Shown here one piece after another: positions 9,246 through 16,683 of a stretch of 22,419 nucleotides of DNA. The first letter of the stretch is position 1. Every line of letters starts with the position of its first letter. Both the position numbers and the translations under genes were made by a program. Under the pieces are notes generated by a model, which did not search any database, was not told the origin of the DNA, and saw only the letters and a program-made list of their open reading frames with translations. The stretch is from a virus: the IMG/VR virus record IMGVR_UViG_3300032294_000186, positions 1-22,419 of that record. One strand, 5' to 3'.

Positions 9246-9397
9246 TCGTCTTTTACTATTTCTAATTTTCCAGCAAAATCGTAGCCAGTTAATCTAATCA
9301 ACTGCTCAATGTGGTAAAGTAAGTCTTCAAGCGTTGCGTCTTCGTGGTCGAATTCATAGCTTGCTTTGTTGCCATAGTGTGTGATTTCTATTTTCAT
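9242..9397 (-). CDS. Small hypothetical protein, 51 aa
   Basis: ATG 9397 overlaps the stop of the MazG-like gene as ATGA and the stop at 9242 overlaps the next start. The sequence has a beta start (MKIEITHYGN), a charged turn with EFDHEDATLEDLLYHIEQL and a closing strand (FAGKLEIVKDE). Highly acidic and probably cytosolic. I recall similar short sequences in phage early operons but no function. Confidence 0.6.
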   Translation of the reverse strand: MKIEITHYGNKASYEFDHEDATLEDLLYHIEQLIRLTGYDFAGKLEIVKDE

Positions 9398-14636: not shown

Positions 14637-15208
14637 AGTCCTAATTTTCGTGCTAATAACAATTCTTTAGGCTCTTCAACTTCAGTAGATTTCTTGTTTT
14701 TAGATAGCCATTTGTTAGCCGTCAAATATAGTGAAGTATATTTCTTGTTGCCTTTGAAGTTTTCTATGGAGTCTAACACCTCATCAATTTCGTTTATAGA
14801 GTATTTATCCAATAGCTTCTCAACATCAGCATTAGTTATAGACAAGTGAGCGAAGCTCCTATATATATCTTTAGATATAACATTAACATTATCATTAACA
14901 GCTATTTTTGCCATAGCATTTATGCGTTTGCTATCGGTTGCTATCGGTTGCCATCGTTTGTTAGCTCCTGCTAAACCTGCTTCACTTCGCTTAACACGCT
15001 TTTCTTCAAATAGTTTAAGATCACGTTTCAATTGTTGTTTGATTGGCTCGAAAGCAATGTTCACTATCAAGTCCTCACTTTCAGGGTTCTCATCACTAAC
15101 GTATGAATAAATGTGTTTGATTAACTTACCTGCAATCTCATCAGGTAGTTTGCTCCATAAGTCCTTTTGATCAACGTAAAGGATAAACGATTTTTTGTCT
15201 TTTGCCAT
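14630..15208 (-). CDS. DUF6291-type replication initiator/helicase loader-like protein
   Basis: 192 residues from ATG 15208. The N-terminus KKSFILYVDQKDLWSKLPDE followed by AGKLIKHIYSYVSDENPE matches the DUF6291 domain found in phage replication genes. A central basic segment (EEKRVKRSEAGLAGANKRWQ) can bind DNA. The C-terminus has YTSLYLTANKWLSKN, a DnaD/initiator-like ending. It is followed by the DnaB-like ATPase, and its gene contains 10-bp iterons and an AT-rich stretch (14862-14964), as lambda O does. It is preceded by an unusually long leader holding a structured RNA. The initiation role is inferred from domain and context, not proven. Confidence 0.7.
   Translation of the reverse strand: MAKDKKSFILYVDQKDLWSKLPDEIAGKLIKHIYSYVSDENPESEDLIVNIAFEPIKQQLKRDLKLFEEKRVKRSEAGLAGANKRWQPIATDSKRINAMAKIAVNDNVNVISKDIYRSFAHLSITNADVEKLLDKYSINEIDEVLDSIENFKGNKKYTSLYLTANKWLSKNKKSTEVEEPKELLLARKLGLC
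14862..14964. other. Candidate replication origin: iterons plus AT-rich tract inside the initiator gene
   Basis: On the plus strand, four consecutive 10-bp units CGTTTGCTAT, CGGTTGCTAT, CGGTTGCCAT and CGTTTGTTAG run from 14925 to 14964, in step with the helical turn. Next to them (14862-14915) lies a very AT-rich stretch with repeated CATTAAC words and a TATATC-TTTA-GATATA dyad. The 10-base period is not a multiple of three, so the repeat does not reflect a repeated protein motif. Lambda and related phages place origin iterons within the initiator gene in the same manner. Confidence 0.5.
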
Positions 15209-15226: not shown

Positions 15227-15310
15227 AAAAAACCCTCGTAAATCCATAGGCTCTCACTTCTACTTCATTACAAGGGTCAATAATACCTTAAGGTTCTATG
15301 TTGTGAGAGC
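15227..15310 (-). ncRNA. Structured leader RNA: pseudoknot with terminator-like 3' stem
   Basis: Read on the minus strand, GCTCTCAC (15310-15303) pairs with GTGAGAGC (15257-15250), eight perfect pairs. ACCCTTGTAA (15277-15268) pairs with TTACGAGGGT (15241-15232), ten pairs with one G-U. The two stems interleave, giving an H-type pseudoknot with linkers of 25, 10 and 8 bases. The first linker holds a small ACC-TTAA-GGT hairpin. The second stem is followed by six T (15232-15227), as in an intrinsic terminator. The G-U pair exists only in minus-strand RNA, which fixes the sense. A promoter -7 box ends 11 bases before the first stem. The element could be a small RNA, an attenuator or a ligand-sensing leader for the replication operon. 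Confidence 0.6.
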
Positions 15311-15320
15311 GAACCGTCTA

Positions 15321-15328
15321 CAAATATA
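15321..15328 (-). promoter_or_regulatory. Promoter -7 box before the leader RNA and replication operon
   Basis: Exact TATATTTG on the minus strand, starting just after the stop of the DnaA-like gene. A transcript would begin near 15315, only a few bases before the first pseudoknot strand, leaving a leader of about 107 bases before ATG 15208. No clear TTG is visible at -33. Confidence 0.55.
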
Positions 15329-16660: not shown

Positions 16661-16683
16661 AGCGTTTGTTTAAATGTTATATG

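Follow-up and report, generated by a model that had tools for sequence, protein, structure and literature searches.

A covarying kissing-loop RNA precedes replication genes and other genes in phages of Flavobacteriia

A putative RNA of ~90 nt with a kissing-loop fold lies on the minus strand (15328‒15227) of the 22,419-nt viral DNA analyzed here (hereafter the window), between a promoter-like box and a replication operon. The family to which it belongs appears to be uncatalogued and abundant in Flavobacteriia phages. Our preferred reading, held with moderate confidence, is a leader-RNA cassette composed of a promoter, the kissing-loop RNA, an intrinsic-type terminator and the regulated gene. 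In this cassette, the contact between loops L1 and L4 (L1:L4) and the terminator stem P3 would serve as an attenuator, and one branch of the family (type B) would add a second tier in which L4 acts on a start-site copy of L1 (S).

A sequence-only reading of this DNA had placed a promoter box at 15328‒15321, an 8-bp helix, six T and an ATG at 15208, and inspection of the minus strand located each of these, and every other described element, at its coordinates. The box TATATTTG (15328‒15321), which is kept in the homologues, is of a form that we take to be the TAnnTTTG-type promoter −7 element of the Bacteroidota consensus. It is followed by hairpin P1 (GGTTC, 15315‒15311; GAACC, 15296‒15292), whose loop L1 is GCTCTCAC (15310‒15303), and by the single-stranded linker J1/3 (15291‒15279) containing AAGGTATTATT, which is conserved in type A. 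Stem P3, formed by GACCCTTGTAA (15278‒15268) and TTACGAGGGTT (15241‒15231), comprises 11 bp including G-U pairs, and hairpin P4 (GTAG, 15263‒15260; CTAT, 15249‒15246), with the loop L4 GTGAGAGC (15257‒15250), is nested within this terminator stem. The P3/P4 internal loop consists of GA on both sides (15266‒15265 and 15244‒15243), invariant in 23 of 23 sequences and in type A as a whole, for which we propose a tandem G.A arrangement; in type B it is AGTA/GAA, which presumably resembles the loop-E motif. A T6 tail (15232‒15227) gives the RNA an intrinsic-terminator-like end 19 nt 5' of the replisome-organiser start ATG, and the T-run is retained in the homologues. L1 and L4 form an 8-bp helix, which is a loop-loop (kissing) contact because P1 and P4 present its strands as loops. 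The two stems of the earlier reading use separate bases, as it held; the 8 bp of the first are correct and the second has 11 bp, not 10. Its two-stem pseudoknot was right in the crossing helices and incomplete as a fold, since hairpins P1 and P4 were overlooked and the full structure is a kissing-loop RNA of four helices (P1, L1:L4, P3, and P4).

The segment folds better than its shuffles with a z-score of −2.5, which by itself is weak support. The covariation in an alignment of 23 homologues, namely relatives of the downstream protein that carry the RNA at the same place, is strong; many contigs encoding such relatives have the RNA at the equivalent position. Over 28 pairs, 96.1% of the cells are paired, and both sides change in 22 pairs (4/5 in P1, 6/8 in the kissing helix, 8/11 in P3, where 98.4% are paired, and 4/4 in P4). 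The covariation score was 0.770; shuffles scored 0.233, and slid structures did not exceed 0.150. Covariation in homologues was the check proposed with the sequence-only reading, and together with the sequence it bears out a structured RNA that lies close to a promoter and ends in a terminator tail before the replication operon. The type-B alignment backs the same fold more weakly, partly because distant members are misaligned. As a check on the coexistence of the kissing helix and P3, which share no bases, we looked for a positive within-class correlation of linker length with P3 length and found none.

Neither the window nor any of 10 relatives gave a gathering-level match to Rfam, in agreement with the earlier impression that the RNA is not a known riboswitch class; a known riboswitch or another Rfam RNA was rejected as no curated covariance model matches. 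The literature searched, whose reach did not extend to subscription journals and preprints, yielded neither a description of the RNA nor any data on transcripts or termination in these phages. A covariance model and an explicit motif scan were applied to 4.4 million strand-bases (~2.2 Mb, both strands) and the motif scan returned at least 120 distinct RNAs (at least 187 matches), compared with 6‒9 matches in the controls; this density does not represent random phage DNA, as the loci had been chosen for a related protein or a motif pattern. Most of the real motif scores were 28‒33, and the control maximum was ~26. Among cultured phages, the motif or model detected copies in Tenacibaculum phage Gundel_1, Flavobacterium phages hattifnatt9-1 (three copies, near record positions 9358, 13299 and 14340) and 11b, and Olleya phage Harreka_1, and a copy in Cellulophaga phage phi19:3 was identified by eye; the stretch has no annotation in the hattifnatt9-1, phi19:3 and Gundel_1 records. 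As regards lysogenic immunity, the function of the P4 CI-type RNAs, the mumin-, pippi- and tantphages, Baltic isolates including hattifnatt9-1, are described as replicating only lytically (PMC7077304). Model R1 matched 2 of 299 bacterial genomes, all 299 being of one family, and one of the two matches was strong, a scarcity that led us to reject a host-encoded RNA.

Several variants were seen beside the main types. The third copy in hattifnatt9-1 (7632‒7741 of locus L247), before a short gene and a DUF6291-like gene, has swapped purine and pyrimidine loops (L1 GTGAGACG, L4 CGTCTCAC). A GGCACATCTCACAC...TGCC hairpin with a T-run in elemoA_11-9C (~5640‒5760 of locus L248), which precedes a small gene near tRNA-Met, resembles this swapped form and gave no model match. 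A third variant upstream of the DUF6291 gene in four contigs (L069, L071, L076, and L078) has L1 GGTGGC(A) and L4 TGCCACC, with L4 in an AAGC/GCTT hairpin and an AGTA/GAAA internal loop. In two others (L044 and L053), a distinct conserved GGGG...CCCC element and an AACACGA repeat lie just upstream of the DUF6291 gene, and the kissing-loop RNA of these phages is located elsewhere or was not found.

The genes around the RNA that are described here lie on the minus strand. The gene directly downstream (14630‒15208) encodes a DUF6291 (PF19808)/primosomal, replisome-organiser-like protein, and the second gene of the operon (13695‒14636) a DNA primase/helicase-like ATPase, right after which lies a phosphoadenosine phosphosulfate reductase-like gene (12845‒13693). 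The gene immediately upstream of the RNA (15334‒15744) has a DnaA C-terminal HTH (Bac_DnaA_C), and phi19:3 and hattifnatt9-1 likewise have a gene annotated as DnaA upstream of their RNA region. Elsewhere in the window, ~360 bp at 16661‒17020 contain no listed ORF of at least 50 aa, and the motif scan and Rfam returned nothing there.

The position of the RNA relative to the next gene is tightly constrained. The start codon lies 12‒28 nt past the T-run in nearly all RNAs, and among the matches listed, 91 of 113 RNAs end 5‒35 nt from an ORF start, compared with 33 of 241 generic terminators. A promoter in this gap is rare; TAnnTTTG occurs within 30 nt after P3 in 15 of the 187 matches listed. The downstream proteins, again among the matches listed, form 21‒23 unrelated clusters, the largest being replication initiators, whose share is biased upward because a search for replication genes, along with RNA patterns, seeded the surveys. 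Other downstream families are HNH and GIY-YIG endonucleases, a helicase, and a methyltransferase. The RNA is a reusable cassette placed before many genes; it does lie before the initiator and helicase operon that it had been proposed to control, and it is not specific to that operon. The diversity of more than 20 unrelated downstream clusters also disfavors a replication primer or origin.

In type B, the L1 sequence appears again where the next gene has its start codon, so that L4 can pair with either copy. The L1 classes copied at the start are AAGCAG, AGGCAG, ATGCAG, GAGCAG, GGGCAG, GTTGCAG, and GTCGCAG; in the GTGCAG class, the copy is found at a distal gene start 1.8‒1.9 kb away and is adjacent in two contigs. 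Within type A, the CTTCGAC class alone (L005, L024, and L027; L163 and L174) has a start-site copy. Across type B, the loop, its complement and the start site change in concert. The adjacent start site is matched by 8 L1 classes, against a permutation mean of 0.5 and a maximum of 4 (n = 3000); the observed number was reached by none of these 3000 loop-class permutations and, in a second test that missed the GTTGCAG class by taking an upstream in-frame ATG as the start, by none of 5000. Loop classes were used here in place of automatic A/B labels, which wrongly assigned to type B some type-A RNAs whose P4 is GTAG.

In the hexamer-loop classes, S coincides exactly with the loop of P5, a weak hairpin (approximately −0.4 to −2.1 kcal/mol) that extends into the AUG; some of these leaders were found by a pattern presupposing P5, and the independent cases are those found without it. 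S lies outside any P5 hairpin in the GTTGCAG, GTCGCAG and CTTCGAC classes. When the scan was run with nothing but the target hairpin (TTTTANNGCAGTAAAATG), it returned 49 loci; 33 of them precede an ORF of 60 aa or longer, and 30 of these 33 have an upstream same-strand RNA with an exactly complementary loop (of the other three, one has no upstream sequence and two have no RNA). The start-site-complementary loop of these relatives points to a putative antisense-type switch, which the earlier reading did not include.

The window RNA has the upstream copy L1 only; S is absent, and the window start site does not match the window L4. The MFE fold places the AUG in the loop of a hairpin, TTTTGC[AATG]GCAAAA (15215‒15200, minus strand), at the position that the L1 copy S occupies in L005, L024 and L027. 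A similar TTTGC-AAAATG-GCAAA is seen at the replication-gene start in L055 and other relatives. No convincing other L4 target was found among the type-A contigs examined, where a search for a start-site regulon came up empty. The sole candidate for a second L4 target within the window, GCTCTCA at codons 3‒5 of the exonuclease gene (10513‒10519), was rejected, motif matches being no commoner than chance.

In the leader-RNA cassette that we favor, transcription would start at the TAnnTTTG box, and transcripts ending at P3-T6 would yield a ~90-nt small RNA; read-through would be the on state, in which the replication gene is expressed. L1:L4 kissing and P3 formation would constitute the attenuator, and we infer from the sequence that kissing may control termination. 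Several observations speak against the cassette: the MFE fold revealed no antiterminator helix competing with P3, the kissing helix and P3 occupy separate bases, the window start site has no match to L4, and S is outside P5 in three loop classes. In type B, L1 and S would compete for L4, since L4 is complementary to both, and L4 bound to S would block translation, either in cis or in trans from the terminated small RNA. For the window RNA, which has a promoter-like box, a leader and an intrinsic-type terminator ahead of the gene, a cis transcription attenuator seems the best-supported role, and the attenuator tier alone is supported because S is absent and the AUG lies in the hairpin described above instead. 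The "attenuator or ~90-nt phage RNA" of the sequence-only reading fits this evidence. More tentatively, and with distinctly less confidence than in the cassette itself, the family may form a class of competitive kissing-loop riboregulators, in which P1 and the start-codon hairpin P5, having identical loops, compete for the P4 loop and provide a private, orthogonal on/off address per phage gene for the replication initiator.

A possible, though not probable, alternative is that the RNA stands on its own as an antisense small RNA that targets start sites in trans in the style of P4 CI or P1 c4, where the terminator would set the 3' end only and the placement before genes would be inherited. Its own promoter and terminator, the start sites matched by L4 in 8‒9 loop classes, and the different loops of RNAs in one phage (in every two-RNA case seen) are in keeping with such a molecule, and the GTGCAG RNA favors trans action because its matching start site is 1.8‒1.9 kb away. 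However, most type-A RNAs, including that of the window, lack a match to any start site of their contig, and the near-fixed distance to the next ATG, with no room for another promoter, favors a cis leader.

A leader that binds a protein or ligand, including a put- or nut-like RNA acting on RNA polymerase, is rather unlikely. Here, kissing would shape the fold and the conserved single strands would bind the factor, as could be expected from the conservation of the linker ATTATT (also present in type B alignments, which were built without selecting for it) and of the internal-loop GA/GA in type A and AGTA/GAA in type B while the helix sequences drift. This view leaves the L1 copies at type B start sites unexplained, and the ligand sensing suggested by the sequence-only reading found no support. 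It is very improbable that the RNA is an insulated promoter-terminator element without switching whose structure protects RNA ends; its compact position between co-directional genes would suit such an element, but the kissing loops covary and loop, complement and start site match three ways. Fortuitous pairing, or a structure at the DNA level such as an origin of replication, suggested by the adjoining replication genes, deserves almost no credence given that all helices covary and the downstream gene clusters are so many and unrelated.

The cassette combines a modular promoter-RNA-terminator design with strong covariation, and in one branch the loop sequence predicts the target start site. 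An RNA switch over phage replication initiators would be directly testable in cultured hattifnatt9-1, 11b, Harreka_1 and Gundel_1, would offer natural sets of orthogonal loop-loop regulators, and would extend P4/c4-style RNA control to Bacteroidota phages.

The CI RNA of satellite phage P4, which is processed from a longer transcript, pairs with the flanking seqA and seqC and causes premature termination of replication-gene transcription (PMC4825925). The type B order L1-L4-S likewise sets an antisense segment between two complementary copies in a replication-gene leader; these flanking copies occur in type-B relatives, whereas the window has the upstream copy alone, together with a terminator-like end at the sequence level. 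Unlike CI, the present RNA has its own promoter and intrinsic-type terminator, its L1 and L4 kiss within one small RNA, and copies precede many genes. The c4 antisense RNA of phages P1 and P7 has loops complementary to the ribosome-binding region of ant (PMC12197685). Type B RNAs and the five CTTCGAC-class relatives, but not the window RNA, share with c4 the character of a small phage RNA with a loop complementary to the ribosome-binding region of its target. They differ from it in the fold, the lack of an Rfam match (window and 10 relatives), the Flavobacteriia hosts, and the targets, which are replication initiators and homing endonucleases here and an antirepressor for c4. Plasmid copy-control systems such as ColE1 RNA I/RNA II also use perfect loop-loop helices of 6‒8 bp and variable sequence in replication control, a likeness qualified by the loops here residing in one molecule, not on opposite strands, and by an initiator gene taking the place of a primer RNA as the target. 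IsrK of prophage Gifsy-1 lies between a phage promoter and a gene, functions both as a small RNA and within an mRNA, and has a Rho-independent terminator (PMC4825925). By description, the present RNA shares this promoter-to-gene position and, putatively, the double role; IsrK activates anrP translation via orf45. We do not claim membership in the P4 CI or c4 families because their defining features are not all observed and the window member is without a start-site copy. By analogy, type B would work like P4 CI or P1 c4, and the kissing-loop RNA is a family distinct from the seqA/CI/seqC and c4 RNAs that resembles them in arrangement.
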